Below are positions 1,484 through 64,000 of a stretch of 64,000 nt of DNA, one piece after another. Origin of the DNA: Scenedesmus sp. ARA3 (Eukaryota; Chlorophyta; Chlorophyceae; Sphaeropleales; Scenedesmaceae); NCBI GenBank assembly GCA_004335835.1, contig RWJK01001074.1:62001-126000 (forward strand), written 5' to 3'. The notes beneath the pieces were generated by a model. That model searched no databases and was not told the DNA's origin. It saw only the letters and a list, made by a program, of their open reading frames with translations. Every line of letters starts with the position of its first letter. The first letter of the stretch is position 1. Made by a program: the position numbers and the translations under genes.

Positions 1484-3760
1484 ATGGTGCAGCGTCTGAC
1501 CTACCGCAGGCGCCATGCCTATGCCACAAAGAGCAACAGGATTCGCGTGCTGAGGACCCCTGGTGCGCGCCACTGACTGCACTTGTCTGTCGCACTCATG
1601 GTGGCTGCTGGGTGTGCTCAGCCCTGTTCTGCGCAGCACAAATGGTTTGCATGCTGTTTGAGGATGCTTCGAGCTTTTTGTTCAAGTTGCTGTGCCGCAG
1701 TGCGCTGCAACACGAGACATCCAGCACAGCAGCAGCACCTCCCTGACTGCTGCAGCTTGGTGTGCTGCTTCTTTGCTGCCTGTCCCCTCCTGCTTTGATC
1801 TGCTGCAGGCGGCAAGCTGGTGGTGCAGACGCAGAAGAAGCCCACAAAGGCACCCCGCTGCGGAGCCACTGGCGTGACTCTGCAGGGCGTGAGTAGCATT
1901 GCTTGCAGGCAGGGCAAAGCAGAGCAGCAGCTGCGGCAGTGCTGGGCTCAGCAGACGTCGGGGCATCATCAGCAGTGACAGTGCAACTCAGTATTGGGCA
2001 GGATATGGTGCTGCTTTGTGCTGTCGGCAACACAGCAGCGCAGTTGGTTCAGCCTGGAGCATGTTGGCGGCGGTTCCAACTGCTTCAGCTGGAAGCTGCG
2101 GCGTGCAGGAGCAGCAACTGCCTTCAAATACACTACCAGCAGCAGCGATTGCGGCAGCACTTGCAGCTGGGGGAGCAGCAGCAGCAGCAGCAGCACACTG
2201 ATGGAGTGCAGCAGCAGGGGACTGCTCGGGTGCAATGTATAGATGTGCGGGTTCTGGCAGCGACTGGGGCAGCAGCTGTGGTGTACTTGACACATCTCCT
2301 CCAGACTGCTTGTCGCGCAGAACGTTACAGCTGTTGGGTCAGCGACAGCGCTAGTAACCTGTCATGTTGTTACAGCCTGCAGGTGGTGTAGCCTGCAGCG
2401 CACTGGTCAGCCGCGTCGGCATGTTTTCGCTCTGGAGCTGCAAAACCCATCAGAAGACAAGCAGCTGCAGCAGTGGCAGCAGCTGCAGTAACCGCAGCAC
2501 ACTGTGGCTTCCTGCTCTGGCAGCGCCAGCAGCAACAGCAATGGAAGCGATGCTAGCAACATGGTTCGGCAGGTTGCGGCAACAACCGCCACCAGCAGGC
2601 ACCCAGCGTCAATGCTCAGTCGCTCACGGCACACTGTCGTTCTTGTCCTGCCGCACCTGCCGCACCTGCCACACCTGCCTGCCTCCCTCCTGCCTCCCCG
2701 CAGCTGCCTGCGCGCCGCCCCGCGGACTGCAGCGCCAAGCGCCTGGCCAAGCGCCACAAGAGCGTGAACCGCGCCTATGGCGGCCACCTGGCGCACGGCG
2801 TGGTGCGTGAGCGCATCATCAGGGCCTTCCTGATCGAGGAGCAGAAGATCGTGAAGAAGGTGCGGCTGGGGACAGCCTGCGCAGCATGCAGAGCATTAGT
2901 GGTGCCGTTGCAGCAGCAGTGTGAGGTTGCAGCAGACGGTCGCAGCACAGTTGGCGCATGTGTGGCCCGCTGTGTTGGGCAACGGCAGTAGTCAACGTGT
3001 TGTGCAGAAGACCGTGAAGAAGGTGCAGCCCGCCCAGCTGCAGGACGGCAACCAATCACTAGTATGGCAGCTGTGACTGCAGCTGTGCATATGGTGTAGC
3101 GGCTGTGCGATGCGTCACAGTGCTTGCTTGTGCGCCATGGCAGGCCCACAGCACAGTGCATGTGGTAGCAGCGCAGTTGGGCGCACGCAGCACGCTGTGC
3201 TGGGCAGTTGCAGCGATGATGCTTGGTGCAGTTGTGTCGTCAGGCCTCCTGGTCGCCAGCAGATCACAGGCAAAGGTTGTTGTGTGCTATGCTGCATCAG
3301 TTGTGATTGAGGTGGCTCTGCTGTGCTTTTAGGCCATGTATACTCCAGGTTCCCTGCGCGAGCAGCAGCAGCAGCAGCAGCAGCCTGTATGTTGTGGTCA
3401 GGTTTGCTGCACTGCACGCCCAGCCCTGCACCGATAAAAGCAGTGCCGGCCTTCGCCACTGGCTGTTTGCTGAAGAGACGGTGCTAGAGCAGCTGCTGGC
3501 CTGCCCTCCTTTTGTGCTGCACGCGTGTTGTGTGGTGCGCACGGGCATAGCTTGCGCACATGCTTTGCTGCAATTGAGTCGCAGGTGTTGAGACCCGTGG
3601 TGTGCAGGGTTCATGTGGAACAGCTGCGGCTGTGTGTTGTCTTCTGGTTGCTTTCATTTCGCATCCTGCTTGCTCACACGAGTATGTTTGCTCTTTCCGT
3701 TGCCGCTGCTGCCACCAGGTGCTGAAGCTGCAGAAGGCCAAGGAGAGGAGCAGCAAGTAA
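1484..3760 (+). CDS. RPL34: 60S ribosomal protein L34 (eL34)
   Basis: Structural protein of the cytosolic large ribosomal subunit. Four exons join in phase: 1484-1562, 1809-1888, 2704-2859 and 3719-3760, giving 118 residues, the normal eL34 length. The N-terminus [19 protein letters not shown] is diagnostic. It is followed by RVLRTPGGKLV, the plant-like [10 protein letters not shown] segment, the basic block ending [10 protein letters not shown], and [18 protein letters not shown] with the short tail [13 protein letters not shown]. All introns are GT-AG. The 859-nt last intron contains a stray copy of the end of exon 3 (about 3003-3030). A TGTAA poly(A) signal lies about 260 nt past the stop. 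Recognition is by direct similarity to the family and is essentially certain; exon borders are hand-inferred. Confidence 0.97.
3003..3030 (+). repeat. Copy of RPL34 exon 3 end in intron 3
   Basis: A stretch including GCAGAAGACCGTGAAGAAGG repeats the last bases of exon 3 and its donor (2840-2865), with one substitution over the best-matching 20 bases. It lies downstream of the true donor and carries a second candidate GT donor. Confidence 0.7.
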
Positions 3761-5194: not shown

Positions 5195-5597
5195 GCCTAC
5201 ATTGCCTGCTTGGCTTCAGACGCACCAGCGACTAGCATTCCATACCCAGCAGCTGCACCCTAACTCACAGCTGCCAGGCATGCACTTCCAAGGCCACCAC
5301 GCGCGACACACTGCTGACACGCAAGGATGCAGCCTCTCTATCAACATCACAGCATGGTGTAGACTGTGGCAGCCGCAAACAGCAGGAACATGATGCCAGT
5401 GACCAGGTTGACCGCCTTCTCACTGATGTACTTGCCAGCCATGTTCATCTCAGTGTCAGTCAAACCATAGCCTACATTGCCTGCTCGACCCAGCCACACA
5501 CGCAAATGGCGCTCCTTTCAATTACAGCTGCACCCTACAAAACTCGCGCCACGCCCCTGCACAGCCAAACCAGCATTCAAGCCCACCACGCAAGGCA
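5195..5597 (-). repeat. Decayed downstream copy of the GDT1-like terminal exon and 3' UTR
   Basis: Bases 5347-5444 repeat 5598-5694, the last exon of the transporter read on the minus strand, including its stop codon, with scattered substitutions. Similarity continues into the flanks: AGCCTACATTGCCTGCT occurs near 5199 and 5470, and a CAGCTGCACCCTA phrase occurs near 5250 and 5527. The tandem unit is about 270 bp. The intact exon is the upstream one in gene orientation, and this copy lies past the stop. Confidence 0.8.
5522..5526 (-). promoter_or_regulatory. TGTAA poly(A) signal of the GDT1-like gene
   Basis: TTACA on the plus strand reads TGTAA on the minus strand, 72 nt beyond the stop codon of the transporter gene. 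Confidence 0.5.
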
Positions 5598-7884
5598 TCA
5601 CAGCATGGTGTAGACTGTGGCGGCCGCAAACAGCAGGAACAGGATGCCGCTGACCAGGTTGACCGTCTTCTCACTGATGTACTTGCCAGCCAGCGCCCCG
5701 CCTGCAACAGCCAGCGCCGTGGCCAGCGCGTGCCCCGCAGTGGCACCCACTGCGACGCCCACAGGGTTCTGCGAGCAGCAGCAACAGTAGCAGCAACACG
5801 ATGTCAGCATATGTTCAAGGCTAGGCTGCTGCTGGTGTTGCAGCACGACCGTCAAGCCTATAACACCAGGCTTGGTTCCTTTTCTTTGCGTTGGACATGG
5901 TGTACAACAACATTGACTGCCAGAAGCGCAGCCGGGCAGCTGACAGACTCAACCCGATCTGCACCTGCGACAAAGCAGCGTCCAGCACACCAAAGTCAGA
6001 TAAACCACGCCGCGTCCAGCTTGGTGTAAAGCAAAGACACTGCACACACAGCATGCCACAGATATGGCATCAGCAGCGCGCACTCGCATAACAAGTCCAG
6101 CTCTACACCCAAAGCAACAACAGACGCTGCGCTGCACCCACCTGCGCCGCGCCCAGCGCGATGGTGGCCAGCATGCTCCTGTCGCTCCACGCGTCCCCAC
6201 ACGCTTCACAGTTTCCGCCACGCCCTGGGTGGACCTCGAAACTTGAAGTATAGCACAACACTGCGCACACAGCAGCTGGCATGCACCCGCCCAACAGTCG
6301 AATTGCAAATCACAAGATCAAAGACCCAAGCAAGACGCCGCGCTGCACCCACCTGTGCCGCGCCGAGCGCGATGGTTGCCAGCATGCTCCTGTCGCCCCA
6401 CTCTGCCAGGAAGATGAGCCCAGCCACCTCCAGCAGGCTGGCAAAGGGCTTCTTCTTGCCGCTGCTGCTGCTCTCAAACTCCGCCACAGCCTCCTCAGCG
6501 TCAGCCAGCTCCTCCTCACTGGTGGAGGCACCAGTTGCTTCGGCGTCACGCGCAGCCTGTTCAACATGGCAGGAAAACACACACGTGACAAGAAAGTCAG
6601 GAGTGGGCCAGAAACTGGCAAGCGAAGAAGGCAGGCCTAAGACGCCACACACAGGCAGGCAGCCAGGCAGCCAGGCAGCCAGGCAGGCAGCCAGGCAGGC
6701 AGGCAGGCAAGCACGGCAAAATGAGTGCTCCTTGAGTTGCAGTCAGCGTCAGCCAGCTCCTCCGCGCTGGTGCAGGCGCGCGTAGCCGCGGCGTTGTGCA
6801 CAGCCTGTGTACAATGCACACAACAGGGGTGAAGATCAGCCAGAAGCAGGCGGGCAGGCATGCAGTGGGCTGTTGCCCGTCCAGTGCGATGAGCGGCTGC
6901 CAGCTCCTGTTTGCTGGTGGAGGCGCCCGGGCCGCCGCCGGCGTTGTGTGCGCAGCGTGCACGACAATGCCACACACGGGGTAGGCAACATGAAACTCCA
7001 GCAGCTGCATGCTGCGTCGTTTCTTATCAACCAGTCAAAACCCCACCCACCTTCAACGCATTGATGCTAAAGAACACCAGCATCCACACTGCCACCTCAG
7101 CTGTGTAACACCACCGCCACCTCCGTTGCCATCTCATTTACATACCACATGCAACACCAACAAACATACCACCACCCACCTTGATGCCAAAGGACACCAG
7201 CAGCGCACCAGCCACCCCAACTGCCCTACACAGCGTTACCTTCCAGCGCTGCACAGCAAAGGCAACACAAAGCCCACCCTCTGCTCCCCACCTTGAGCGC
7301 CTTGATGCCGATGAACACCAGCAGCCACGCTGCAACCTCAAATGTGTTACACAGCGTCACCTTCCGCTGCTACATCACAAGCGTGTTACGCTGCTACATC
7401 ACAAGCGTGTTACATCACACAAGAAACACACCAAAAGTAACACACATAAACCACTTGCTCCCCACCTTCAGCGCTTTGATGCCGAAGAACACCAGCAGCG
7501 CCACGCCCGCAATCTCGCCCACAGGCAGGCTGCTCTTCAACGCATCCGGCACCCTGCTGAACGCAGCACCAATCCCCACACTGATCAGCGTCATCACAGC
7601 CAGGGCAGCCACACTGCCCACAAAGCTGATCCAGCGGCCCAGCTTCATCGCAAGCAATGCGGCAATGAAGAAGGTCTTGTCGCCGAGCTCAGAGAGGAAG
7701 ATGAGGCAGAAGGCCGCAAGTAAGCCGCTGCGCCCTGCAGGGCCGTTGACCAGGTAGGCCTGCAGGCTGCTGGCGTGGCCGGAGACGTATAGGGCGATGC
7801 AGGCGGCGATGGCGGCTGCGGCTGCGAGCAGGCCTAGGATGAGAGTACGGCCGGGCTTTTGGGACCTGCACGCAGGCAGGCAAG

Positions 7885-7932
<48 letters not shown>

Positions 7933-9291: not shown

Positions 9292-12200
9292 GTGATGGTC
9301 AGCCAGACAGCAGCTGCTGTTGGAGGCGACGTCATCACAGCTATGCATAGTCAGCAACACCCCACCAGCAGCTCTAGAAGCACCAGAAGCACAAATTTAT
9401 GGGGATCTAGCATCCTGCAAGCACTTGTCCCACATGCTGGCACAATGTCAGCAGCAGGGGCAGTGCCAGCTTCAGCAACAGCAGCAGTAGTCCCTTGGTC
9501 GGCAGGCAGCCAAGTGCTGCAGCTGCCTGCATACACATCCTACGGCAGCACTCCTTTCTTCCCAGTGATCTACTCCGTCCGGGAGCCAGCAGCAGCACAG
9601 TCAGCAGCAGGGCCTAGCCAGCATGCTACAACTACCAGCACAGTCAGCCCACAGCCTGCAGCCAGCACTAGTAACAGCAGCAGCAGCAGCAGTAGCAGTG
9701 AAAATGAGCATGGGCAGCATATCAGCAGTAGCAGCAGCAGCAGCGGCAGCAAGCAGCGCCCCTGGTCGGAGATGTGGCGCAGTGCTGGGGCGCATGCCCT
9801 GGGGGGAGGCATCCCTGGCAGTGCAGCAATGGTGGTGCAGGTGAGGCCTGCAGGCTGCACTTGTCTCATTTAATCTTGAACCTGTCATACGGCATTGACT
9901 GCCAGCTGCACGCATTTACCGGCACGCATGGTGAAGCCAGCAGCGGCGGCATGATGCAGTAGCATGCAATGCAGCTGGCACCCTTTTCGGTGTGCGAATA
10001 GCAGCTGCCCACCACTGCAGTGCTTTGCTGGTGACCTAGCAGCTTGGCGTGCTGCACGTCTGCCCTGCAAGAGAGGGCAGCGCTGGCTTTGCGGCTGTAT
10101 GTTTCAAGAGCACCAGCTCATGTCAGACAGCGCAGTTGCCATGACTGCTCTATGTATGTGTGGCAGTTCATCCTGGCTCACTGCTTCTGCCCTGCTGCTG
10201 TTGCTGCTGCTGCTGTAGGTGCTGTCGCTCATGTGGCTGCGCACCACGGTCAACTACCAGTACCGCTTCGGCACTAGCACCAGCGTGGCACTGCGCACAC
10301 TGTACAGGTGAGCGCCTGAGCGCCTGACAGGTGACGCGCGCTGCATTGCCTGCAGCAGCATGCAACCTCCACACTATCAGCAGCAGCAGCAGCAGCACAT
10401 TGACACAAATTGGTGTGAGCAGCAAGTCTGGCAGACTGGCAGTGCTGGTATCAGTAGCATGCACACGTGTCGCCTGCAACAAGCCTGGGCGCAGCCCGAC
10501 GCTGCCTGCTACTGTGCTGCGAAGCTCTCTGACAATGCTATAACTGTGTCATCACTATGCCGCAGGGACGGCGGTATTGTGCGCTTCTACCAAGGGGTGG
10601 GGCCAGCGCTGCTGCAGGTGCGTAGCTAGCAGACAGCTGCTGCAGAGAGTGGTGTGGGCCAGCAGCTGTGAACAGCACGAGCGGCTGCCATGCAGGTGGC
10701 TGACACACACAACACACTGGCTACTTACGGCATCCTTGGGCTGGACACATGCTGGTTGCAACGTGCCCCTCGGCAGAGGGCTTCCAGCTGCTTCCCACCG
10801 CTTGCATTGCCATGTTGCTGCTCCGGCTCTGGACTCCTCTACTGCCGCTACTGTTTCCAGTGATACCACTGTCTTCGCTGCTTGCACTGATGCATTCCTG
10901 CTCATACATCCTGCACATGCAGGTCCCGCTGTGCCGTTTCGGCAACACCTCTGCCCACAACTTCATGGATGTCACGGATATGTTGGGTTCGACCACTGCT
11001 CCTGCCTGAATCTGAACCCTCTATTTGCAGGGCCCGCTGTGCCGCTTCGGCGACACTGCTGCTAATGCGGGTGTGCTCAGCCTGCTCAACGAGCTGGACG
11101 CCACGCGCAACCTGCCCGTGGGGCTGAAGACTGCCTGTGCCTCTGCCACAGCCGGCGCGTGGCGCATGCTGCTGCTGCCGCTGGACGCGACCAAGACCAT
11201 GATGCAGGTGCGGTGGCAGCAGCGGCAGCAGCAGCAGCAGCAGCAGCTGGACGTTGGCTTGCTGAGCATATTGCTGTGCCTGCAGCTGTCAGCACCTGAT
11301 GCATTGTATCGATATCAGGTCCAGTGTATATATGCAGGTTTGGTCTGCTGGTTGTCCCCGCTTGCCTTGCAGCAGTAAGATGCAGCGCCGAGCATTTTTT
11401 GGACATGCTCGGCAGTTATTACTGTTCACGCGCAGCAAGCTGGTACTTATTGTGAAGAGCATAAGTATGTCTGTCTCAATCTGCTGTGCAACTGCTGCCG
11501 CTGCAGGTGGAGGGGCGCGCTGGGCTGCGGCACCTGTACAGCAAAGTGCGCCATGACGGGCCTGGCGTGCTGTACCACGGCGCTGCTGCGTCTGTGGCGG
11601 CAACCTTTGTCGGGCACTTCCCCTGGTTCACCACGGTGGGTGGGCGCATGCTGCTAAAAGCCGTCGAATTGCAGAGCGGCAGCAGCAGGAGCAGCAACAG
11701 CAGCAGCAGCAGCAGCAGCACATGTGCTGCCGTTGGTACTGTATGTTGACGCATGTCTGCCTTTACGATGCTGTTCACAGCAACAGATGTGCGCACTGCC
11801 TGTACCCGGCTCTCTTTGCACTGCTGGGCAGCTACCTCTACCGGCTGCTGCCGCACCCCGATGAGCTGAAGCTGTTGACCGCAGCCACACATGTGCTGCT
11901 CTGTAACACATGCGCCTGTGCACTGCTGCTCCCTCCTACCCCCTGCAGTACAACTACCTCAACCAGGTGCTGCTGGACCTTGATGAGCTCAGGCTGCGGC
12001 TGCTGCTGCTCACTCGATCTCCAGGCTGTTCAAACCAACGCATGTACTGTTTGTCAACACATGCACCTGCGCACTGCTGCCCAACCACCCCTTGCAGTAC
12101 AACTACCTCAACCAGGTGCTGCCGCACCCCGATGAGCTCAAGCTGATGCCAGCAACCACATGCACTGCCTTGCAACACATGCACCTGTGCACTGCTTCCT

Positions 12201-14024: not shown

Positions 14025-16569
<2,545 letters not shown>

Positions 16570-36000: not shown

Positions 36001-36179
36001 CACGACGAGTGCACTGCAAGACCAATGGAAAGGCTGCCTGATGGTCACGCAGGGCTTGCGCAAGCAAAGCAGCTTGCAGGACTGCTTTCTGCTCTGCTGC
36101 AGCATTCCAACAGCTGTACACAGCCGCACACGCCACCCTGCAACACTTTGCCATCGGTCATAAGAGCTTTTCCAGTCTC

Positions 36180-50897: not shown

Positions 50898-52049
50898 GCA
50901 GCGATGCGGCCATCTTCCTAGGTCTGTACAGCAGCAGCAACATGACAGGGATGTGCAGTCTGCAGAAGCAGACCGCACTTCCAGCACTGGAGCCAAGCAG
51001 GTGAGGGTCCTGATAGGCACTCAGCAGCATGATGTCAAGATATATTTGCATGCAGCAAGAGCAGAAAAACCGGTGTGCATTGAGTCGGTCAGCTGCCTTG
51101 GAACGATGCTGACAATCAGAACGCTTGCTGCAACCAATGCTTGCAACTGTTGCATACATCCTTCACTCGCCACCTGCCCGTAGCTTGCCTCTGGTGTGCT
51201 ATGTTCCTGGCGTCAGCGCTGGCCAAGGGGTGTGAGTCGCACCCTGTTCCCTGCACATCAGCCTAGCATGCGGACTTCAACGTGCGCTGCTGTCGCCCTC
51301 TCTGCCTGCTGCTTCTTCCGCAGTCGACCAATGGCGCTGCAGCTGCAGCGTCTGCAGCTGCCGCCCCAGCCAGCGATGGCCGCTGGCGGCTGCTGAGCCG
51401 CAGCGAGCTTGCAGGAGGCACGCTGGAGGTGGTGGCCTGGGAGGGGGAGCGCTGCCTGCGCATATGGCTGCCGCCAGGTCAGTATTTCATGCTGCATGTG
51501 CTGTGCCAAGAGTGTTGAAGAGGCACCAGGCGTCTAGTTGCTTTGCTGGTTGCTATTACGTCCCAGTGGGTGCCTTGTGCAGTGATGGGAGCGCTGCCTG
51601 AGACGGTGGCTGCCGCCAGGTCAGTGTTGCATGCGCACTGCAACCTCTTAGTAGTAGCCGCAGCGAGCTTGCAGGAGGCACGCTGGAGGTGGTGGCCTGG
51701 GAGGGGAGCGCTGCCTGCGCATATGGCTGCCGCCAGGTCAGCATCGCAGCTGCGAAATTTTATATTTCAAGTTGATATATCCTGTGCTGGCGCTGCAGCT
51801 TCACAACAGTAGCGCCAGGCAGCACCCTCTTTGCCTGTTGCAGTTGCACTGCACTTGCACTGCAACAAACACCATGTCCGTCCCTGTTCTTTGCATCCCT
51901 TTTGCAGCCAAACGATGCTTCTCTCAGCTGGCTGTAGCAAGCAGTCTTTATGACCCGCCGCCATTTGAAGTGGTGATGGGCCGGCTGCTGCTGCTGTGCA
52001 GGCTACTGCAATGTGGACGCACGGCACTCCTTGTAACCAATGGCTTATG

Positions 52050-52108
<59 letters not shown>

Positions 52109-55100
52109 TGCAGGCTACAGCTACGTTGATGCGCAGCGCTCCCCATACCCAGTAGTCTACCTGAACGACGGCCAGAACCTTTTCGGCGATTGCCCCACGC
52201 TCTCAGGCACCTCTTGGAATGCAGCAGACACCGCAGCGCACCTCATCGGCACCGGCAAGCTGCCGCCGTTTGTGATTGTTGGCATCGACCATGCAGGGCC
52301 GCTGCGCAGCTACGAGTACACGCCCTGCACGCCTGGCAGCGGGCCGGGCGGCTTCAGGTGTGTGGTTGTTGGAGGGATCATCCGATGAGTAATCGGGTGT
52401 TGGCATGCAGATGGACGCATGCGCTTGTGCAGCAGCAGCACGGTCTGGGCTGAAGCTGCTGGTGTTGCTGCTGCCGTGGCTATGCAACCTACACAACTTT
52501 CTGGTGTTTCCCTGGCGGCTCCAACAACCACTGCTGCTGCTGCTGCTGCTGGTGGTGGTGTTGCTGTCGCCCTTTGCAGGTCTGATGCTGCTGACTGGCC
52601 TGGCGGTGGCATTCATGCTTACCTGGACAGGCTGAGGGACGAGGTGCTGCCATGGTGGGTATTTGTTAACACTGCAGCACGCATAGTATGGCTTGCTGTT
52701 GAACATGATGCATCAAAACTATGTCACCTTTTACGAAGCAACAAGTGCACTTGCACCATGCAGCAGCTGGAACTGTTGAATCTGAGATGCAGAGCAGGTG
52801 CCAGGCCCCACACCTCCACAAACCCGCAGGAGATGGCTACTGTAGGCGGCTTTCCATGGACGAGTGTTCACACAAAGCCGTCAATCCTGACCGGTGCTGT
52901 TGTCGCATCACTCCTGCTGCAGGGTTTCTGCAAACTACCCCGTCTCAACAGACCCCCAGGACAGGGCCTTTGGTGGCAGCAGCTTTGGCGGCATTGCTGC
53001 GCTGGTGGCTGGCATGAGGGGTGCTGAGGGCTGCGGCTTTGGGGCGCTGCTGGTGGAGAGCCCCAGCCTGTGGATTGGGGACCCTGAGCCTGAAACATTC
53101 CTCAAGGTGGGCTGGAGGGTCTTTAAATATTGAACTGGAGAGTGTGAGCAATCTGCTTGCAGATGCATGCATGCAGTGCGGGTGGACAGCCCCAGCACGT
53201 GGGTTGATGACCCAGAGCCTGAGACCTTTTTGAAGGTGAGCTTCACATGTTTTTATGATGGTGTGAAGACAGCGCAGGAATCTGCATGCAGATGCATGCA
53301 TGCAGTGCAAGTTGGGAGCCCCAGCCTGTGGACTGGTGACCAACAGTCAGAGATGCTCCTGCAGGTGGGCAGCGCTGGCTGCGCTTGCGCCTGCTCTCCC
53401 GCAGGAACTGTTGTCTTACAACAGCTCCTGGTGTTATGGAGTTACACTCAAATGGGTGCAACAGAGCACTCAGGCAAACACTCTCCATGTTTTGCCTGTT
53501 CAATGCGCTGCTATCACTCACCACTTGCTACATGCCTCGCACCGCTTGTTGCTCTTCATCACGCTGCAGGACATGCTGGCCTACAAGGGCTCCCGTCTGC
53601 AGCAACCCACCACTGCTTTTTGCCACTCACTGTGTGTGCCTTGTCTCTGCTCTCTGTTCTGCAGGAGGTGCTGGCCTGTAACGACTCACCTCCGTCACCT
53701 TGTCAACCACTGTGCGTGCCTTGTCTATACGTCAACCTCCCGACTTGCAGGACGTGCTGTCTTACAAGGGCTCTGTCCGCAGCGGCTGTGCCTTGTCATG
53801 GGCGGCATGGAGTACTCCGGCACAGTTTCTGGCCCTTGCCGCTTGCTTTTGCTCACAGACAGCACGTCATGTTTGCTGGAGGTGCAGCTTGTAGGGGCTC
53901 CAGGGCTGGGACGCTGAACACAATCTCGTCATAGCTGCCTTACTGTGTTGCTGCCACTCATCGCTGCTTACTTCTCCTCTCGCTGCAGGAGGTCTTGTCC
54001 TACAAGGGCTCCTGGCCGCAGCGGCTCTACCTAGGCATGGGTGGCAAGGAGTACTTCGGCACACGACGCTCCTACCTCCCCCATCCCCTTACAATCACTG
54101 ATTACACATCTTCTTGCAGCGTGCGATGGCTACAAAGGGCCCTGGCCGCAGCATGTGTACCTGGGCACAAGTGTCTCGGAGTGCTCATACGCTTTGCCCT
54201 CTGTTGCTTTGACGTGCAGGAGGCCGTATCCTACAAGGGCTCCTGGCCGCAGCGGCTCTACTTAGGCATGGGCGGCAAGGAGTACTCCGGCACATGCTTT
54301 CCGTAACCTTTCTGCCCACCGCTTGCGTGTCTCCTTGCAGGAGGTCTTGTCTTACAAGGGCTCCTGGCCGCAGCGGCTCTACTTGGGCATGGGCGGCAAA
54401 GAGTACTCCGGCACACGCGGTGGCCAGCGCGCAGAGCATGATGCAAACTTCCCTCGCTACCTCAAAGCCCTCTATGCCAGCCTCACTCAGGCAGGCCTAG
54501 GCCCCAGCCGGCTGGCTTGGGCATTTGAGCCTGAGTATGCACACACTGAGTCAGCGTGGGCTGGCCGGTTTGCGGCCGCGCTGCAGTTTGTGGGTGGCGG
54601 CTGGTGGCAGCGCTGGCTGCAGCGGTATACTAATGAGCTGTTCTTCACTGTTCCGAGGAAGCTGCAGGCCGGGGTGCCTGGCCAGCTGCTGTTCTTCAAC
54701 CGCCGCAACAGCCACACGCTGCAAGGGGTGCGGGGAGGCCTGAAGATGATTGTGGGCAGGAATGGATGGGAGCACACGCAGCACCTGCCTATGAAGTTTG
54801 CAGCAGAGGTGCAGGTGAGGCTGCAATTGTACACAAGCTGCATGTGTGAGTGTGCGGTTGGCGTCCTATGTGTGCATGTGACTTGCTGCTGGTGCTGTTG
54901 CAGCGCTGCGAGTGTGCAGTCAGGCGCTGGTATCTTATGCCTGCTTGTTCATATATGGCTGCAGCGGCTAGAGCTGATACAGCCACAGCAGCTGCACAGA
55001 CCCACCCTGCGGCGCTGAAACAATGCTGCGCGCTATGTTCCCATCTGCTCTAGTAATGGGCTGCAGGAAGCAAGTGTAGCCAGTGTACTGTACTTGTCAG

Positions 55101-57408
55101 CAGGTGTAGCCAAACCACTGCTGGTGTTGACTGCCTGCTTGTGCGTGTTTGGCTGCAGCGCATGGAGCTCAAGGAGCCACAGCAGCTGCGGGAGCAGGTG
55201 CTGGATGAGTGGAGGAGTGAGTACAAAGCTGTTCAAGAAGAGCAGCAGCGGCAGCAGGAGCAGGAGTTCCAGCGGAAGATGGCCACAGAGCGAGAGAGGC
55301 TTGCTGCTGCAAGAGCCGCAACAGCAGCATCCGCAGCGGCGGCTGCTGCGGCTGCGGCTGCTGCAGCAGCAGCAGCTGGCACTGGCACAGGGGCTGGTGT
55401 GGCGTCAGGGGCAGGGAGTGTGGCGCAGCAGGAGCAGCAGCTGCAGCAGTGGCAGGCGCACCTGGATGACCAGGAGAGGCAGTGGCGGCAGCGGCCGCCG
55501 CTGCCACCTGCAGTGTCGCCGCAGATCCAATCTGTGCTGTACCAGCAGCCGGTGAGTGTGGTGGTGCAGCCTGTTGCAGAAGATGCAATGTCGACTGATA
55601 CATGGCTGTCTGCGGTAGACTGCACTTCGGATGCGCCAGCTGGTGCCTGCACAGCGTTCCTAGATGCGCATTTCCGTGTATGAGCTGCAGAGCTGGGACC
55701 TTTTGCAGCATCATTTGCATGGGTGTGCTCTGGGGCTTTGCCCAGCTTGTTGCCACATGCAAGATGCCCTTTAAGCCTTTCCTGCAAGCTGTACATTGGC
55801 CAGTTGGTATATCAACATCTGACTGACAGCTGCATCTGGTGGGTAATGGCAGTGTCCCACTCATCAACCTGCTGAGCACAACATGCGGTCCTTCCTTTTC
55901 CCCTGCCTGCAGGCCAGCTGCAGCATCGATGACGGCAGCAGCGACTGGCTCATGGTGCAGCTGCCTCCCCTGACTGGTGACGTCTACGAGGTCAACTTTG
56001 TGTTCTGCGATGCAGCCGGCACAGCATATGACAACAATGACAGCAACGACTTCTGGCTGCCGGTGCGCCAGCCTGAGCAGCTGCTGCCACACACACCCGG
56101 CGGCGGCAACAGCAGCAGCAGCGGCGGCAGTAGAATTAGCCGGCCAAGCCGCAGCTCTGGCACAGTTGCAGCAGTAGCAGCAGCCTTTGCAGGCGATGCC
56201 TGCGGCTGGCTGACCCCTGGAAGGGGCCTGGAGGCATACGCAGAAGCACTAGATGCCGCTACTGCTGCTGCTGCCAGGCCTGCGGAGGAGGCCATTGCAG
56301 CAGCAGCAGCCAGCTGCCAGTACTTCTTCTTCAGCCTGCCGCCTGTGCCTGTGGCTGGGGCCAGCACTGCGCTGTATGTGAACAAGGCCCGGCTGTGCAG
56401 TGGGCTGCAGGAGGCGAGCAGCCTGCGGTTGAAAGTGGGGTTCAACCGGTGGCAGCTGCTGGACCAGGTGCGAGGCGTGAAATTGAAAGGGTAATTAGGG
56501 TGCCTGCATGTGTTTCTTTAAATCTATTATGATGTACTGGTTGCTGCTGTGTATGATTGCTGCAGCTGCACAACCAGTGGTCGCTTGTCTGCTGCAACCA
56601 GTGAACTCACGCGCTCCTTGATCAGGTGCTTCCTTGCGCTGCACGGTGCTGCTGCTGCCGCTGCTCTAAACAGGTGGAGTGCTTTGCCAAAGTCCACCGC
56701 TCAGGTGGCCCCAACTGGTGGCGCATCTATGCGTCTAACATGGACTTCCTTTTGGTTTGTCTCAGCCCCAAAACATGTTGCGCCGTGCTGCTGTTGCTGC
56801 TGCCACTGCCCCGCACGTAGGTGGAATGCCACCCCGCTGGTGCCAACCGTGGCGGCAGCCCAGATTGTTGGCGCACCACATGCAATCAAGTCCTGAATCC
56901 TGCTCCTCTTCCCTGAACGCCTGCATTTGCTGCAACGTGCTGCTGCTGTAGGTGGAGTGCCATCCTGCAGGTGCCAACCGTGGTGGCGGCCCCGACTGGT
57001 GGCGCACCACTGTGACGGTGCCTGTTGACGCCACACAAGCTCACTTTGTGTTCTCTGGCGATTGCTACGGCGAGGAGCGCTGGGACAACAACGGAGGTGG
57101 GTGGAATAGTTGGCTGGCATCTGGTGTGGTTGCATGGCTTTGTTTGGCTGTGCGTTTATGAGTAGCTGCATGTGGACACCAAGCAGGCTCACTTTGTGTT
57201 TCTGTGGGGACTGCTACGGCGAAGAGCGCTGAGACAACAACGGAGGTGGGCGCAGAAGCTAGGTGGCTGTGCTGTGGGTGCAGTTGAGGTCTTGGTGCGG
57301 GACTCTCTGCATCTGTTTGTGGAAAACGCTAGTTGAAGCAATTGCATGAAGCAAACCTGTAGGGCTTGTGCTGTCGCATGTGCTGCTTAAGTGACATGCT
57401 GTAACTGT

Positions 57409-57439
<31 letters not shown>

Positions 57440-57777: not shown

Positions 57778-57812
<35 letters not shown>

Positions 57813-60800
57813 CAGTAGCGGCAGCAGCGGCAGCTACAGCCGCAGCAGCAGCAATGGCAGCAGCAGCAGTTCAGAGGCTACTGGCAAGGGCAGCAACGGG
57901 ACCGGAAAGAAGTCAGTAATTGACAGCATCTGGAGGAGCAGCATGTCCAGCAGCAGCAACAACAGTAGTGTAGGCAGCTGGCGGAAGAATGGCAAGCCTG
58001 CTGCTACCACCCACAGCAGCAACAGCAGCAGCAGCAGCAGCAGCAGCGGCGGCAGTAGCAGCAGCAGCAAGGCTGAGGTGGATGATCTGCCTGAGATCGA
58101 CGCTGCTGCTGCTGCGAGTAGTGAGAAGGCAAAGCGGCAGCGCTGGTGGGATGAGAAGCGGCTGAGGGTGTGGCTGCCCCCGGGGTTCAAGGCAGAGGAT
58201 GCACCGCCTGGCGGCTGGCCTGCGCTGCTGATGTGCGACGGGCAGGTGAGGTGTAACTGCTAGGCTCAAATGGTTTATCTGGTGCTGCTGCTGACTCGTT
58301 AGTTATTTCATATGCACGCCAGCACCGCAGCACGCTTTGTGCCACGCCAGCCGTTGCAGCTTTCTCATGGTACAGCTCATGCGGTCGCTGCTTGGTGGAG
58401 CATGTGGCTTTGCAGGTCCCAGGGTGCTGCATATGCACATAATATGGCAAATGTTGTGCGTAACGTTGACAACCTCACACCATGTGTGCTGTGTCCTTTC
58501 CTGCCTGCGTGCAGAACATGTTTGAGGACTGGCTGAGCCACCAGGTGCGTGCAGCAGTGCCGTACGTGAAAAGGCTCTCCCGGGCACAGTATTGCATCAA
58601 GGGCTTGTTTGCTGATGGCAGCATTCAAGAGACTTTGCAGTATCCTGACAGGCATTTGCGTGTTCAGCACAGCTGGAGCTTAGCAGCGCACAGCAGATGT
58701 GTAGAGCGTGCATTGCGCTTTTCAAGCCGTGTGCAGCACATTGCTCATGCAGGCGATGTGCACCCAACACCTTCTGGTGGTATGGCTGCTCACGCCGTTT
58801 CTGCTGGTTGTGCATGTTGAGGCCCGGCTGCAAGCCTAGCCCCCTGTACTGGCGCCACCTCTGACCTTCCTTGCTGCTGCTGCTTCTGCTGCAGGGTGTG
58901 TCGTGGAACTTGGGTGTCACAGCAGCCGAGCTCATCGCCTCAGGAGCCATCCCGCCATGCGTCTGCGTTGCCATTGACAGCGCAGGGCCATACAGGTGTG
59001 CATAAGGATTCAACGGCAGCAGCTGTTGTTTGCACATCAGCAGCTGGTGCCTTGTTTTGCTGTCTACTGTGCAGGGCTTACAGGTGTGCTGCCCACACAG
59101 CATGACAGCCTGTGCAGCACCGCAGCTGGTGCCTTCTACAGCCTCACGTTAAAGATTAGCCACAGCGGCAACTGCAACAGCCACTAGTGGTTGTGACAGT
59201 ACTGCCACCAGACTGGCTGGCCTGTATTCTTGTTTTCCCTGCAGGTCGTACAACTACCTGCCCTTCCGTCCCGGCACGGGCCAAGGCAACTTTTACAATA
59301 ACGCTCTAGCTCATAGAGTGACATTCAAGGTTCTGTACTCAAAACATAGCCACTGTCATGCGTTCCAGGTCGTATAACTACCTGCCCTTCCCTCCCGGCA
59401 CAGGCCAAGGCAAGTTTTCCAATAACGCTCTAGCTCATAGTCTGACATCTGAGGTTGATTGCTCACAACAAAACCAATGTAATGCATGCCGTGCAGGTCG
59501 TACAACTACCTGCCCTTTCCTCCCGGCACGGGCCAGGGCAACTTCCGTGAGGATGCAGCGCGCTGGCCGGGCGGCGGCGCGGATGAGTTCCTGGGCAGGG
59601 TGCAGCATGAGCTGCTGCCAATGCTGCAGGAGCGCTACAACCTCTCACAGGTGGGTTTGCATTGCTGGGTTTTCCCATGTGGGATTGCGGGGTTTTGGCT
59701 AGGCAAGGGCGCGGATGAGTTCCTGGGGCGGGTGCAGCATGAGCTGCTGCCCATGCTGCAGGAGCGCTACAACCTCTCACAGGTGGGTCCCCTCTTGGTG
59801 TTTGAACTGTGAAATCTAGGGTCAAGGCTTGGTGGCGGCGCGGATGAGTCCTGGGCAGGGTGCAGCATGAGCTGCTGCCCATGCTGCAAGTATCGCTACA
59901 ACCTCTCACAGGTGGGTCCCCATTGAGGGTTGATTTGAACCCGCTCTACACCTAGGGTCGGCTTGGTGGGGGCGCAGTAACTGGGAAGGGTGCAGCATGA
60001 GCTGCCGCTAATGCTACAGAATCGCTACAACCTCTCACAGGTGGGTTGGCGTTTCTGGTTTCTCCCTGTGTGGGAGTGCGGGGGTTTGCCTAGACAAGGG
60101 CGCGGATGAGATCCTGGGCAGGGTGCAGCATGAGCTGCTGCCAATGCTGCAGGAGCGCTACAACCTCTCACAGTTGGGTCCCCTTTTGAGGTTGATTTGA
60201 ACCCGTTGCCAATCTAGAATCGGCTTGGTGGGGGTGCAGTTTCTTGGGAGGAGTGCAGCACAAGCTGCTGCTGATGCTACAGGAGCGCTACAATCCCTGA
60301 CAGGTGCGGGGGGTGTGGTGGGTTTCAGGCTCTTGTGGGCGATCTAATGTTGACGGCCAGAGCACATTGGTGTTGCAAATGAAGGAAACAGCAGTTTTGG
60401 TGAACAGCTATGTGTAGTGGTGTGTAGTGGCTGCATGTTTTGACTCAACACGCTGTAGCTCAGCAACTGCCATGCGATACACAGGCTCTCGTCTTGCAGC
60501 AGTACCTTTGTGGGCGTGGATTCTCGCCTGTCACACCTAATCGCTGCTGTTCTTCCTGGCCATTGTCCCTGCCTTTCTGTTGTGCGCAGGACCCATCACG
60601 GCTGGCGTTTGGTGGCGGCTCTTTCGCTGGCGTGACGGCGCTGATGGCTGCGATGCGGCTGCCGCACGTGTTTGGCAACGTGTTGGTGGAGAGCCCTTCG
60701 CTATGGACAGGAGAGGGCCGCTTTTTGGAGGTGAGGCTGGTGTTACGTTTGTGCTTGCTCTCCATACATTGATGCTGTTAGCGTTTGGCGTCGTGCTGGT

Positions 60801-63800
60801 GGAGAGCCCTTCACTGGGGATAGGGGAGGGGCGGGGAGGGGCGGTTCCTGGAGGTGAGTTCGATTGGTCTGGGGCGAATCTTATCATATGTGGATGTAGT
60901 CCCCGCCATGTGCATGCAAGCTTTTTGGCGCGTGCTCGTGGAGAGCCTCGCTTGTGGACAGGGGAGAGCCGCTTCCCAGAGGTGAGGCTGGGTAGTTCAT
61001 TGCTACTGCTTATGACGTCTTGAGACTGCAGCGCGTGTTTCGTGCCGCCAAATTGGCGGCGTGCTGGTTTGGACCTTTTGCTGTGAACGAGGGAGAGCCG
61101 CCTCCTGGAGGTGAGGATGGTGGTACGTCTGCTGTGACTTGTAACGTGCTGGGGCTGTCAGTGTTTGGCAGCGTGCTGGTAGAGAGCCACAGCTTGTAGA
61201 CAGGGGAGGGGCGCTTGCTGGAGGTGAGCGGCGTTGATATGAATCCACTCTGGTGTCTTGTGTCAGCATTACAGTGGACGGGAGAGGCGCTGTTGCTGCA
61301 GGTGCAGGTCGGTGCTGATGTTTTGGATCTGACTGGCTGTGCCGGCCCTGCTATCCGTTGTTGCTCCCTAAAAAGAAGGGTGGCAGCTGTTGACCAGGGA
61401 TCATATGCTGCTGAAGCGTGTTAATGACATGCACCTCACTCAATGACACTGCTGCTGCTGTTGCTCCCGCAGGACCTTGCCGCGCACTCTGGGCGGCTGC
61501 CGGAGCGGCTGGCACTGGGCTGCGGCACCCGCGAGTACAGCGCCACACGCGAGCACGAGCGCTACGACGTGGACCAGATGCTGCTCAACGTGAGTGACTT
61601 TGCGGAATGTTTCAATTACCAATTCATAACATGCTTTGCCATGCTTGCGAGCACGAGCGCTACGATGTGGACGAGATGCTGCTGGACGTGAGTGACCATG
61701 CATAGTGTGTTTGCATTCGTATGCACATGTGTGACAACATGGGTGCACATGCGCGAGTGCATCTTGCGGTGCCCATGCGCTTGCGCATGTGATTGCGTGC
61801 GCACGCGATCGTGTGTGTGCATGTAATCGTGTGACCGTGTGCGTGTGCGCATGGGTGGGTCAATTTTGTGCTAGTGTGTGTGCACACATGCGTATGTCAA
61901 GAGTGTGCCTGCGCCTTTGCTTGCATGCATGCTACGCACACGCGCGCATCAACTTTATGTCATTGCAATGCATGCACACGTGTGTGCGCATGTTTTACAT
62001 TCGTGTGAACATGGCTGCATGCGTGCGTGTGCGTGTGTATGTGTATTCTTGCTCGTGCGCGCGCCTCATTTTCTGTCTGTTCCGTCATGTGTGTATGTGC
62101 GCATGCATGCGCACACGTCGAGTGTGTCAGCGCGCTCGTACGTGCTTGCGTGTGTGTGCGCGCGGGGTTGCGTGCGTGTATTTATTTGAGCATGGTTGCG
62201 TGCATGTGTGCGCGGGCGTTGTGTGTATGCACACATGAGCGCGTGCGTAGTGTCCGTACCTGAACACGCGTGGGTGGGTGCGTATGCACGAGCACTTGTT
62301 ACTGAATGTGAGCATGTTTGGGTGCATGCACGTGTGCGCGCGCATGCGATAGTGCGTACAAGTTTGCTCGCACGCGTGCGGGCACGCAAGTGTTGAGTTG
62401 GTGTCTGTGTGCGTACGCACGTGGCTGCTTGCATGCGCGCGCGTGCGTGCATGCGTACATGTGCACGCGATTGGCTGCACGAATGTGTGCGCGTGTATAT
62501 GTGTGTGTGCACACGTGTATGTGCATGTTTGTGCGAGTACGGGTGTGCGCGTGTGTACACACGCACACATGTGTGCCTACGTGCACGTGTGCGCGCAGAG
62601 GGCTTGGGTATGTGTGCGCGTGCGTGCGTGCGTGCGTACGTGCGCGCGTGGGTGCGCATGCAATTATGATTTATGTATTTGTGTGCGTATAGCAGCACTG
62701 GCAAAGATACTGCACTTCTCAGCGGTGACCAACATGCAGAAGATATGGAGGCAACGTAAGGCGATCATGACGGCAGCAAGGAAATGTACAGGCGCAAGAC
62801 CAGCACAGCCAGACCCGAACCCCGCAAAGAAACGAAAGCACGGCACCGGCGAGCCAGACCACCGCAAAAAGCCACGGTTTAAATGAGCGCACGACAGCGA
62901 TACACCCCGCTTGTGCCCTAGGGCGCAAGTGGACAGGTAGAGGGTGTGGAGCCCAGGGGCGCTGCCCCTGGCCACACACACCCTCTTAGCCTTAACTTAC
63001 CCAGGAGCTGCAGAGCGGCCTGGGTAGTCACTCACTCACTCACTCACTGTGCGTATGCATGTATGTGTGCACTTGCATGTGTGCCCGTGCTGGGGTTGGT
63101 CAACTTGAACCAGCACGCGCATGTGCGTGCTTACATGTGTGTGTGCATGCATGTGTATAAGAACGAAAATAGACACCCACTGAGTCCTGAGGACCACGTT
63201 GGATGCGTAACTGCACATGGTCAAGCAAGTCTGGCATGAAGACTTCTCATGTGTGTACGTGTTGCGTGTCAGCATGTCTGCGTGCGTGCTCGCGCTTGTG
63301 GGGGCTTCAAGCACATGCGTGTGCCCGCGCGAGTGCCTGCGTGCGCTCATGCTTCTGAGTTCGTGCGTGTGTGTATGCACGCATGCTTGCCTTCGTACGT
63401 GAGTGCGTGCAAGTCTGTAGATGGGAGCGTGTGTGCATGTGTGCTGGTCTGTACAGGCACGTGCGCGCGTGTGATTGCGTGTTTGCCTGCATGCGTTCAT
63501 GCGTTATCTCTTTCGTGTCTAGTGCGGGCGCGCATGTGCGCGTGTCTGCGCACGCATGTGCACATCTCTGCATGCTTATGTGCTCGTCTGTGCGCATGCA
63601 TGCCCACTGACACTCCTGCTGTGGCTTCGATTTGCCTCCCTGCAGCACTACCACGGGGCCTCCACGCTGCTGCAGGAGCGCTGATACATGTTGCACAGCA
63701 CTGAATGTTGCACTGACATCCTCAAATCGCCCTACTGCATTCCTGTCCCTTTGCAGCAATACCATGAGGCCTCCAAGCTGCTGCACGAGCGCGCACGCCA

Positions 63801-64000
63801 GTTGCACTGCGCTGCACTGCTCTGCACTGCACGTTGCACTGACACCCTCGAATGCCATACTGCCTTCCTGCCTGCCCCTGCAGCAATACCACGAGGCGTC
63901 CAAGCTGCTGCAGGAGCGCGGCCTGCGGGGCCCTGGCCGCTTCATGTTCTGGGTGGACGAGGGCGCGGGCCACCACGAGGGCGCCTGGCGCTGGCGGCTC
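50737..64000 (+). CDS. Esterase-CBM53-CBM53-esterase protein (3' end off window)
   Basis: Likely acts on or at starch granules: two esterase/PF00756-type alpha/beta-hydrolase domains flank two CBM53 starch-binding modules. Exons, all in phase: 50737-51000, 51324-51477, 52114-52357, 52580-52654, 52923-53106, 54341-54814, 55159-55551, 55913-56467, 56952-57096, 57467-58245, 58515-58544, 58895-58995, 59497-59650, 60590-60730, 61473-61589 and 63884 to the edge; at least 1,309 residues. The N-terminus (MNLQQRSIHHPCSGRTASFL) looks like a transit peptide. Esterase 1: VVYLNDGQNLFGD, FGGSSFGG (Ser about 266), AHTESAW (His about 375). CBM53: LLFFNRRNSHTLQG, VNFVFCDAAGTAYDNN, VGFNRW, AHFVFSGDCYGEERWDNN. 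Esterase 2: LLMCDGQNMFEDW, FGGGSFAG (Ser about 1195), GHHEGAW (His about 1300). The substrate is unknown. Confidence 0.88.
51585..51760 (+). repeat. Two copies of esterase-gene exon 2 3' end
   Basis: Bases 51656-51740 repeat 51397-51483 almost perfectly (CGCAGCGAGCTTGCAGGAGG onward) with one G lost in a G run, which shifts the frame. Bases 51588-51625 are a shorter copy (GAGCGCTGCCTG...GCTGCCGCCAGGTCAG). Both keep the donor. Confidence 0.93.
51985..52112 (+). repeat. Copy of esterase-gene exon 3 5' edge, then a (GCT)16 tract
   Basis: GCTGCTGTGCAGGCTAC at about 51993-52010 repeats the exon 3 acceptor (52105-52120) and continues with weakly similar codons. A pure GCT run (52051-52098) separates it from the true acceptor and serves as its upstream tract. 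Confidence 0.85.
53155..53370 (+). repeat. Two copies of esterase-gene exon 5 3' end
   Basis: Segments 53175-53240 and 53305-53370 repeat 53040-53112 (GAGAGCCCCAGCCTGTGGAT and the donor). Each begins with the same GCAGATGCATGCATGCAGTG lead. Confidence 0.9.
53399..54340 (+). repeat. Seven copies of esterase-gene exon 6 5' edge
   Basis: CAG acceptors followed by (GAGGTCTTGTCTTACAAGGG)-like text start near 53405, 53569, 53664, 53751, 53989, 54115 and 54220, before the real exon at 54341. The copies at 53989 and 54220 match for about 75 nt, through the bases for WPQRLYLGMGGKEY. Others are shortened or mutated. Spacing ranges from 87 to 238 bp. Confidence 0.93.
54940..55025 (+). repeat. Copy of esterase-gene exon 7 5' edge
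   Basis: TGGCTGCAGCGGCTAGAGCT and following CAGCAGCTGC text near 54956-55000 repeat the exon 7 acceptor and first codons at 55151-55200, about 200 bp upstream of it. Confidence 0.8.
56668..56951 (+). repeat. Two copies of esterase-gene exon 9 5' edge
   Basis: Copies near 56673 and 56821 precede the real exon at 56952, with the shared reading V-E-C-(F/H). The second matches GGTGCCAACCGTGGCGGC and the bases around the W-W-R-T codons, but one Trp codon region is damaged (GATTGTTGGCGC). Spacing is about 148 and 131 bp. Confidence 0.9.
57160..57255 (+). repeat. Copy of esterase-gene exon 9 3' end with in-frame stop
   Basis: Bases 57172-57250 repeat 57022-57100 (CTCACTTTGTGTT, TGCTACGGCGA, GACAACAACGGAGGTGGG). 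The conserved Trp codon before D-N-N reads TGA in the copy. Confidence 0.92.
59071..59496 (+). repeat. Copies of esterase-gene exon 12 3' end and exon 13 5' edge
   Basis: GCAGGGCTTACAGGTGTGC at 59071-59089 repeats the exon 12 end. Two copies of the exon 13 start (CAGGTCGTACAACTACCTGC) begin near 59243 and 59367, before the real exon at 59497. Both share a different downstream tail (AATAACGCTCTAGCTCATAG), so they duplicated as a unit of about 124 bp. Confidence 0.93.
59695..60310 (+). repeat. Five copies of esterase-gene exon 13 3' end
   Basis: GGTGCAGCATGAGCTGCTGC and CGCTACAACCTCTCACAG/GTGGGT recur near 59730, 59857, 59990, 60121 and, more decayed, 60250. Period is about 125-135 bp. The last has CCCTGACAGG, creating a stop; others carry small deletions. 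Confidence 0.93.
60780..61315 (+). repeat. Five copies of esterase-gene exon 14 3' end
   Basis: Copies of GGTGGAGAGCCCTTCGCTAT plus the GGAG/GTGAGG donor recur near 60795, 60935, 61060, 61165 and 61270. The fourth has TTGTAGACAGG (in-frame stop). The fifth is reduced to the donor side. Confidence 0.9.
61640..61695 (+). repeat. Copy of esterase-gene exon 15 3' end
   Basis: GAGCACGAGCGCTACGATGT and GATGCTGCTGGACGTGAGTG repeat 61551-61595 with D for Q and N changes. The copy keeps a GT donor. Confidence 0.88.
61730..63635. repeat. Alternating purine-pyrimidine intron, Z-DNA-like
   Basis: Intron 15 of the esterase gene is dominated by TG/CG/CA dinucleotide alternation (GTGCGCATGC-like) over about 950 bp (61730-62685) and about 580 bp (63050-63635). 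The only long non-alternating part is 62690-63050, interpreted as an insertion. Alternating GC/GT sequence favours left-handed DNA under supercoiling. It has no coding value; the Cys-rich open frames here are spurious. Confidence 0.85.
62690..63050 (+). mobile_element. Probable 3' end of a 5'-truncated non-LTR retroelement
   Basis: A 360-bp island inside the alternating tract. It has a short open tail rich in Lys/Arg (PNPAKKRKHGTGEPDHRKKP, stop near 62884). A strong hairpin follows (AGGGTGTGG...CCAGGGGC / GCCCCTGG...CACACCCT, 62941-62984), then a second stem (ACCCAGG / CCTGGGT, 62999-63025). It ends in (TCAC)5 at 63027-63048. A hairpin 3' UTR plus a short tandem-repeat tail is typical of some LINE ends. 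No reverse transcriptase is present here. Confidence 0.4.
63640..63883 (+). repeat. Two copies of esterase-gene exon 16 5' edge
   Basis: CTGCAGCACTACCACGGGGC near 63641 and TTGCAGCAATACCATGAGGC near 63751 precede the real exon at 63884. The first ends GAGCGCTGA (stop). Both are followed by the same TTGCACTGACA(T/C)CCTC intron text. Period is about 112-126 bp. Confidence 0.93.

Follow-up and report, generated by a model that had tools for sequence, protein, structure and literature searches.

Serial copies of exon edges in the introns of a Scenedesmus locus and their probable origin in small tandem duplications

How introns come to hold repeated partial copies of the exon edges that border them is the question raised by a 64,000-nt stretch of the genome of Scenedesmus sp. 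ARA3 (87.3 Mb, 1,567 contigs), the whole of which is referred to here as the window. Intron growth is usually attributed to transposons. For the introns of the window, the best explanation is probably that frequent tandem duplications of about 125 bp, filtered by selection, lengthen introns serially.

Gene models were produced with a custom, small hidden-Markov gene finder and then corrected by eye and by homology, with six exon ends moved by 1-2 nt before the edges were searched. The curated set comprises RPL34, GDT1, a carrier gene, TraB, BTB-SPRY, RS-KH-J and two esterases, with 36 introns, and is a non-random sample in that the eight genes were picked because they could be named. The RPL34 model matched solved eL34 chains (residues 1-116 of 118), and the exons of TraB and esterase 2 agree with the homologous proteins P0028 and P0001, respectively. 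The TraB-like protein, compared exon by exon with P0028 of Tetradesmus obliquus, gave 93% over the query, and esterase 2 is 90% identical to a protein of Scenedesmus sp. NREL 46B-D3, with 93% of the query covered; these matches place the alga in the Scenedesmaceae, near T. obliquus. Pfam matches among the window genes are to Ribosomal_L34e, GDT1, Mito_carr, SPRY, DnaJ, KH and Esterase; the predicted TraB protein, the gene located at 14-16 kb and the BTB portion of BTB-SPRY gave none. The putative name TraB derives from PF01963 in distant relatives together with the preliminary description of this DNA, which is also the only source of the label BTB. The gene finder labeled several intronic edge copies as exons, and the pattern is thus a hazard for gene finders in general, since such copies are liable to be annotated as exons.

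When 60-mers from exon edges were searched in the adjoining intron, with a cut-off score of at least 40, copies were found for 12 of the 36 donor and 11 of the 36 acceptor edges (23/72 over the 36 introns of the eight curated genes); judged against 100 shuffles at p ≤ 0.01, the numbers are 14 donor and 14 acceptor edges (28/72). Searches of the wrong polarity yielded 0/40 matches at score 40 and 1/40 at p ≤ 0.01, and 60-mers from exon interiors yielded 0/57 and 2/57, respectively, the three control matches at p ≤ 0.01 having scores of 29-32. The difference between edges and pooled controls (23/72 vs 0/97) corresponds to a Fisher P of 3e-10. The preliminary description had reported that the exon interior is not repeated, which agrees with these data (edges 23/72 vs interiors 0/57). 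Its strict polarity is borne out by the wrong-polarity searches at score 40, but has to be qualified because exon-free duplications exist too (e.g., positions 5966-6151 of the paralogous locus L018, described below).

An iterative search located 49 copies in seven genes, 47 of them at splice junctions and two at gene 3′ ends, and most copies extend to the junction itself (Table 1). The estimate of about 60 places made earlier is plausible, because the LRR gene lies outside the curated set in which these 49 were located. In RPL34, one of the genes listed there, a single copy is present, and that one is weak (score 33). Some copies are recent: those at 51656-51753 and 5345-5441 retain 95% identity along some 100 nt. 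Per million cells, direct-repeat HSPs of 36 bits or more number 2.2-5.6 at offsets between 50 and 400 bp (5.6 at offsets of 100-200 bp), as compared with 0.01-0.08 beyond 3.2 kb. From about 13.1 to 26 kb the repeat families number just three, and none of them is evidently located at an edge, so that not every gene is affected.

Table 1. Exon-edge and 3′-end copies located in the window, by gene (window coordinates)
Feature	Location	Strand	Evidence and remarks
RPL34 exon 3 donor edge (2841-2859), short downstream copy (3004-3029)	2841..3029	+	Score 33, 0/100 shuffles as high; below iterative-search cut-off
GDT1 3′ coding end, stop codon included (5598-5692), downstream copy (5345-5441); no splice site	5345..5692	-	95% over 97 nt, offset 251; flanking spacers homologous
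GDT1 exon 6353-6556 donor edge, downstream copy (6122-6190)	6122..6401	-	HSPs, iterative search
GDT1 exon 6353-6556 acceptor edge, two upstream copies	6495..6948	-	HSPs, iterative search
GDT1 exon 7466-7821 donor edge, three serial downstream copies	7046..7516	-	HSPs, iterative search
Carrier exon 11031 acceptor edge, one upstream copy	10918..11062	+	HSPs, iterative search
Carrier exon 12322 acceptor edge, series of four copies upstream with co-duplicated spacers	11817..12383	+	HSPs, iterative search, spacer alignment
Carrier exon 12322-12501 donor edge with downstream copy, then assembly gap and 22-bp minisatellite	12466..12618	+	HSPs, iterative search
BTB-SPRY exon donor edge (32383), two downstream copies	32354..32629	+	HSPs, iterative search
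TraB 3′ coding end (stop 36180), downstream copy (35741-35983)	35741..36379	-	HSPs, iterative search; P0028 fits upstream version
TraB last-exon acceptor edge (36470) and the two edges of exon 36837-37018, one copy each	36431..37152	-	HSPs, iterative search; edges from P0028; 37018 copy below cut-off
RS-KH-J exon 42110 acceptor edge, serial upstream copies	41570..42180	+	Two above cut-off, others by eye
RS-KH-J exon 43879, two acceptor-edge copies; 43968, one donor-edge copy; exon 44487, one acceptor-edge copy	43624..44520	+	HSPs, iterative search
LRR gene, serial acceptor-edge copies (46935, 47053, 47169) and donor-edge copy (47507-47660)	46935..47660	+	HSPs, by eye; exon models predicted
Esterase 1 donor edge (51477), two downstream copies	51396..51753	+	HSPs, iterative search
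Esterase 1, 1,234-bp intron, donor edge of exon 52923-53106 (two copies) and acceptor edge of exon 54341 (five copies), counted above cut-off	53048..54418	+	HSPs, iterative search; paralog intron 606 bp
Esterase 2 exon 56952-57096, upstream acceptor-edge copies (second, weak, at 56704) and downstream donor-edge copy	56817..57282	+	HSPs, iterative search
Esterase 2 exon 59497-59650, two upstream acceptor-edge copies and five downstream donor-edge copies	59237..60306	+	HSPs, iterative search; paralog downstream intron 152 bp vs 939 bp here
Esterase 2 exon 60590-60730 donor edge, three downstream copies	60668..61228	+	HSPs, iterative search
Esterase 2 exon 61473-61589 donor edge, one downstream copy	61549..61696	+	HSPs, iterative search
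Esterase 2 exon 63884 acceptor edge, two upstream copies	63633..63919	+	HSPs, iterative search

In 40 of 49 cases, the distance from one copy of an edge to the next is 98-150 bp; the median distance is 129 bp and the shortest 98 bp. BLAST shows few offsets below 80 bp, but this shortage is partly an artefact near the main diagonal, where the 22- and 41-bp arrays were missed at their own period, so reliance was placed on a BLAST-independent, ungapped offset scan of the window and of 16 stretches (144,333 bases) from 16 other contigs. At offsets of 12-399 bp, the scan, whose entropy filter conceals offsets below about 36 bp, found 46 clusters in the window and 185 in the other loci; 20/46 and 58/185 of these fall at 110-149 bp and only 3 and 8, respectively, at 40-89 bp, with echoes of the main step near 250 and 350-380 bp. 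A far-offset control, from which locus L004 was omitted, gave 0 clusters in the window and 6 elsewhere. The step is found in pairs that join exon and intron (n = 82; 69 at 90-159 bp, 0 at 40-89 bp) as well as in pairs without a predicted exon (n = 33; 24 and 5, respectively), and the size preference therefore looks like a trait of the duplication process rather than of splicing.

The reading frame separates these classes of duplication. The offset is a multiple of three in 20/26 exon-internal pairs (13/19 with one array collapsed), in 24/82 of the mixed pairs and in 9/33 of the exon-free pairs, which argues that exon-internal duplications must keep the frame and that edge-spanning ones need not. 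Freedom of unit length from the frame (24/82) is what is expected of small tandem duplications that span a junction. A predicted exon in another of the sampled loci (L017) has a period of 84 bp, and also of 42 bp, both in-frame lengths, and probably encodes a repeat protein.

These properties suggest a simple sequence of events. The nuclear genome would undergo frequent small tandem duplications with a unit usually of about 100-150 bp. Those internal to exons would mostly be purged, or retained only in frame, and a duplication straddling an exon edge would be harmless if splicing kept to the exon-proximal site, which, judging from protein homology, is probably the one in use. The distal edge copy would then become intron together with its splice site and decay, the exon-proximal copy alone being held constant. 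Repeated events at the same edge, along with duplication of segments that already contain several copies, could build the serial arrays, adding about 125 bp to the intron at each step, and the classes surviving selection would be edge-spanning, in-frame and non-coding duplications.

Decay of this kind can be followed along the copies. On the exon side, identity to the true exon is about 0.83 over the first 30 nt, 0.79 over the next 15 and lower beyond; on the intron side, it is 0.71 over 15 nt and then about 0.6, as compared with about 0.46-0.55 for unrelated DNA aligned in the same way. Of 49 pairs of adjacent spacers, 15 show homology at p ≤ 0.01 (0.5 expected), which implies co-duplication and hence tandem duplication in those cases; the other 34 pairs show no homology at p ≤ 0.01, and tandem duplication across their edges is read from the layout. 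It had also been considered that “filler” DNA might separate copies that are not in tandem, an idea dropped for the pairs in which gapped alignments revealed homologous spacers. Overall, the data support the earlier proposal that junctions were tandemly duplicated time and again and that the exon-proximal copy alone remained intact.

The copies are themselves non-coding, as 27 of 28 indels in them break the frame. Differences between copy and exon number 54, 53 and 127 at the three codon positions, a greater share at the third position than a uniform copy would give, and 121 are synonymous and 113 not, against a random expectation of 27% synonymous; in these counts related copies are scored separately and the TraB frame is uncertain (49/49/120 by subtraction, without the three TraB copies). 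Part of the third-position excess is expected, because the true exon tolerates mainly synonymous changes.

Splice signals have nonetheless been multiplied, as the preliminary description proposed: AG or GT is retained at the predicted sites of 41/47 copies (register shifts of up to 2 nt allowed), and 27/47 equal or exceed the score of the real site in a custom splice-site matrix, although the use of the best of five registers favors the copies. Decoys have thus not been visibly selected away. The copies might conceivably function as alternative exon ends or serve as regulated decoys for splicing, a view that these retained signals would favor. Such a role is very unlikely, since the indels break the frame where alternative or mutually exclusive exons would keep it, the offsets disregard the reading frame, and copy number differs strongly between paralogs. 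Among related algae, the Tetradesmus obliquus TraB protein displays single exon edges only. Two ORFs of relatives run from exon into intron: P0024 contains an acceptor-edge-like segment (score 89) in which copy and true exon are not distinguishable, and P0020 scores 50, not above its shuffles (maximum 56).

The esterases permit intron lengths to be compared with the presence of copies. A locus on another contig (L018; C683:46501-56500) contains a paralogous esterase 1 - esterase 2 tandem pair, with about 68-88% nucleotide identity in exons. Nine comparable introns lie at the same exon borders and differ in length alone, with a total of 7,449 bp in the window vs 3,008 bp in the paralog. Two copy-free introns are near-equal (269/273 and 350/348 bp, window/paralog), and the seven that bear copies are longer in the window by 109-2,026 bp each, including the esterase 2 intron with five donor-edge copies (939 vs 152 bp). 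The largest difference, 2,294 vs 268 bp, is mostly TG-rich DNA by eye, not copies. Within the curated genes, the 18 of 36 introns that bear copies have a median of 551 bp vs 284 bp for the 18 without (P = 1.6e-4). Intron growth, as put forward in the preliminary description, is therefore upheld, since the length differences from the paralog track the copies; the copies explain the direction of the length difference in array-rich introns, though a single pair would also allow loss in the paralog. In the paralogous models, the true donor of esterase 2 exon 1 lies three bases further on (intron about 372, not 375 bp), and the start assigned to esterase 1 exon 4 is likewise misplaced, with no effect on the compared introns.

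The paralogous locus has copies as well: a donor-edge copy at esterase 1 exon 4 (offset 131 bp) that is apparently common to the window (129 bp), an acceptor-edge copy at esterase 1 exon 5, and a 66-bp intronic duplication that is 97% identical. Its own array and the apparently common one weigh against an assembly artefact produced by collapsed or misjoined repeats, as do the recurrence of the step at other loci and the identity of the repeat pairs, which is 66-96%, not 100%. With the 42-N assembly gap near 12.7 kb, which adjoins one array, as the point in its favor, an artefact is highly improbable. Introner-like mobile introns or another dispersed element could also place serial similar blocks inside introns; yet in a whole-genome search that ignored simple repeats and very common words, the two array regions examined (59000-60760 and 53107-54340) matched only themselves and the paralogous esterase locus. 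Introners are characterized by near-identical copies spread over many unrelated genes; none were found for these two regions, and an origin of this type is scarcely credible.

Small tandem duplication, then, remains the probable source of the copies, and its reach extends beyond the window. Local repeat pairs occur in 15 of the 16 other loci with the same preferred step of 110-149 bp, and near-repeat content, across a set that includes the paralogous locus, ranges from 0 to 48% of bases (none in L005, 48% in L011). With machine gene models, and with low-complexity 60-mers, exons below 60 nt, introns above 2.5 kb and genes of fewer than 240 coding bases dropped, 20/243 edges in these loci have copies vs 7/394 controls (wrong polarity 3/139, interior 4/255; P = 1.5e-4). 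The phenomenon is present in kind in most of the 16 sampled loci. A search with the Mito_carr family was also tried as a genome-wide test and proved unusable, the family being itself three-fold repeated.

Whether the duplications favor junctions is a separate matter. Copies arise where there is no splice site, since two of the four gene 3′ ends searched (GDT1 and TraB) are copied downstream together with their stop codons. In the spans of the curated genes, 25 families are located at exon edges, another stops 4 nt before a donor, and three (two minisatellites and a TG-rich stretch) are intron-only; a second count gives 26 edge and 3 intron-only families. Random tandem duplication with a unit of about 125 bp was simulated on the curated genes, starting from ancestral introns of 150-350 bp, with coding-altering duplications purged, copies decaying neutrally and rates hand-set toward the observed number of edges. 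Given that coding changes are purged, polarity and the lack of interior copies follow, and because both are thus built into the rule, the simulation is a test of numbers only. Fifteen runs yielded 17-34 junctions with copies and 27-57 copies (observed, 23 and 47) and a real-to-copy exon identity of 0.785-0.867 (observed, 0.834), for a proposed one duplication per 33-91 substitutions or so (lambda 0.011-0.03 per bp per substitution per site), a model-dependent figure. The suggestion that the mechanism is special to junctions is not sustained, given the copied 3′ ends, the exon-free duplications and the fit of random duplication to these numbers.

Some features of the data fall outside the simulated ranges. 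Intron-only families are too few (3 vs 5-20 in the 15 runs and 4-74 in 12 earlier ones), and real-to-copy spacers are more diverged than simulated (0.612 vs 0.646-0.78). The random-duplication model leaves over a moderate edge excess, and, taken with the third-position bias and the variation between loci, the intron-only shortage and spacer divergence indicate that random duplication with neutral decay is not the whole story. The residue could be explained by an edge bias, by conversion that slows the loss of exon parts, or by a wrong ancestral intron length or indel rate.

In the first of these, a process favoring borders, such as transcription-linked nicks, R-loops or a nucleosome placed on the exon, would make the duplications, and their placement would be non-random. 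The shortage of intron-only families at a similar number of edge families is consistent with this, and in the other loci 58/101 duplicate pairs touch a predicted exon edge (circular-shift expectation, 45.5) and 18 stay clear of exons (expectation, 31.8), although the gene models there are unverified, may call copies as exons and are partly drawn to them. But the same step is seen in exon-free pairs, the 3′ ends of GDT1 and TraB are copied with no splice site, and the moderate excess could reflect the longer detectability of edge copies, whose exon part decays on one side only; a true border preference is accordingly doubtful. Less likely than not, but possible, is gene conversion that acts between an exon edge in use and the copies of it in the intron; it would keep exon parts alike while spacers drift and so make arrays look younger there. 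Consistent with it, copy-to-copy identity is 0.77 for exon-derived parts vs 0.62 for spacers (41 pairs), and the GDT1 3′-end copy is 95% identical over 97 nt beside a co-duplicated spacer that matches in 124/160 columns with 13 gaps. Yet simulations without conversion give 0.69-0.88 for exon parts and 0.59-0.74 for spacers, ranges that include the observed values (0.766 and 0.618), simulated exon parts being more alike because copies are selected for exon similarity. A combination of the two, in which a size-set duplication of about 125 bp biased to exon-intron borders acts as an intron-growth ratchet, each step adding a spare splice site whose loss is slowed by conversion, is unlikely; the step might then perhaps be set by nucleosome, nick or transcription geometry.

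The favored reading, duplication filtered by selection, has relatives among established processes. Introns are known to be gained when a tandem duplication recruits splice signals (PMC4974935; PMC2891723), with a potato RdRp case that duplicates an intron-exon structure (PMC4974935) and cases in Drosophila (PMC2891723). As in those, small tandem duplications that carry splice signals are rendered harmless by splicing; the difference is that potato and Drosophila gained a new intron in one event (PMC4974935; PMC2891723), whereas in Scenedesmus old introns keep their position and grow serially, at about one-third of the tested junctions. With respect to the type of intron gain described by Rogers, splice sites supplied by duplication are present (predicted, 41/47), and no new intron within a continuous exon was found among the nine introns compared with the paralog. 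Rogers and Bendich described direct repeats of 4-30 bp at splice sites, common to both ends of an intron (PMC11782384); these share the location at exon-intron borders and differ from the present copies, in which a single edge recurs inside the intron that it borders, with a unit of about 125 bp. The arrays resemble minisatellites and VNTRs in being tandem, and one intronic 41-bp and one 22-bp array are also present, but the edge copies are few, diverged, long units anchored at exon edges.

Fill-in at breaks with overhangs generates small tandem duplications in mouse and human cells (PMC8355091). These insertions of under 100 bp (PMC8355091) belong to the same mutational class of local, direct, short tandem duplication; the Scenedesmus units are distinguished from them by a narrow preferred size near 125 bp and by their density in introns. 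The Scenedesmus duplications may likewise stem from break repair that involves fill-in synthesis, or else from slippage during replication. Further sources of small tandem duplications by break repair are reportedly patch-mediated repair, in rice, and paired-nick duplications, in Arabidopsis.

In the open-access literature, which leaves most subscription papers and preprints outside its scope, no serial junction copies or 125-bp step were found described in green algae, and the available sections of the study by Tulin and Cross of hidden exons in Chlamydomonas (PMC4938644) make no mention of serial edge copies. Junction-spanning tandem duplication is known; the serial scale and the fixed step appear to be new. 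The system makes intron growth readable step by step, the exon edge serving as an anchor that marks each event and paralogs of differing intron length being at hand for comparison. It also amounts to a natural experiment in how the spliceosome ignores many decoy sites, and it provides a mutational signature of defined size from which the repair pathway can be sought.

Several other sequence features accompany these genes. In the carrier intron, positions 12620-12830, after the donor-edge copy, contain a short ATTAC repeat, the 22-bp minisatellite and the 42-N gap, and by eye the segment resembles the tail of an inserted element. The last compared esterase 2 intron (61700-63880, 2.3 kb) is mainly TG/CA-rich low-complexity DNA, with an embedded stretch near 62670-63080 that by eye resembles the end of a mobile element. 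Long CAG/CTG runs occur at 14466-14570 and elsewhere, both in predicted exons, as polyserine, polyglutamine and polyalanine, and in introns. Finally, a possible 9-nt microexon, noted by eye, lies at 33346-33354 in BTB-SPRY, and is preceded by the 41-bp intronic minisatellite, whose units are, again by eye, faintly like its acceptor region.
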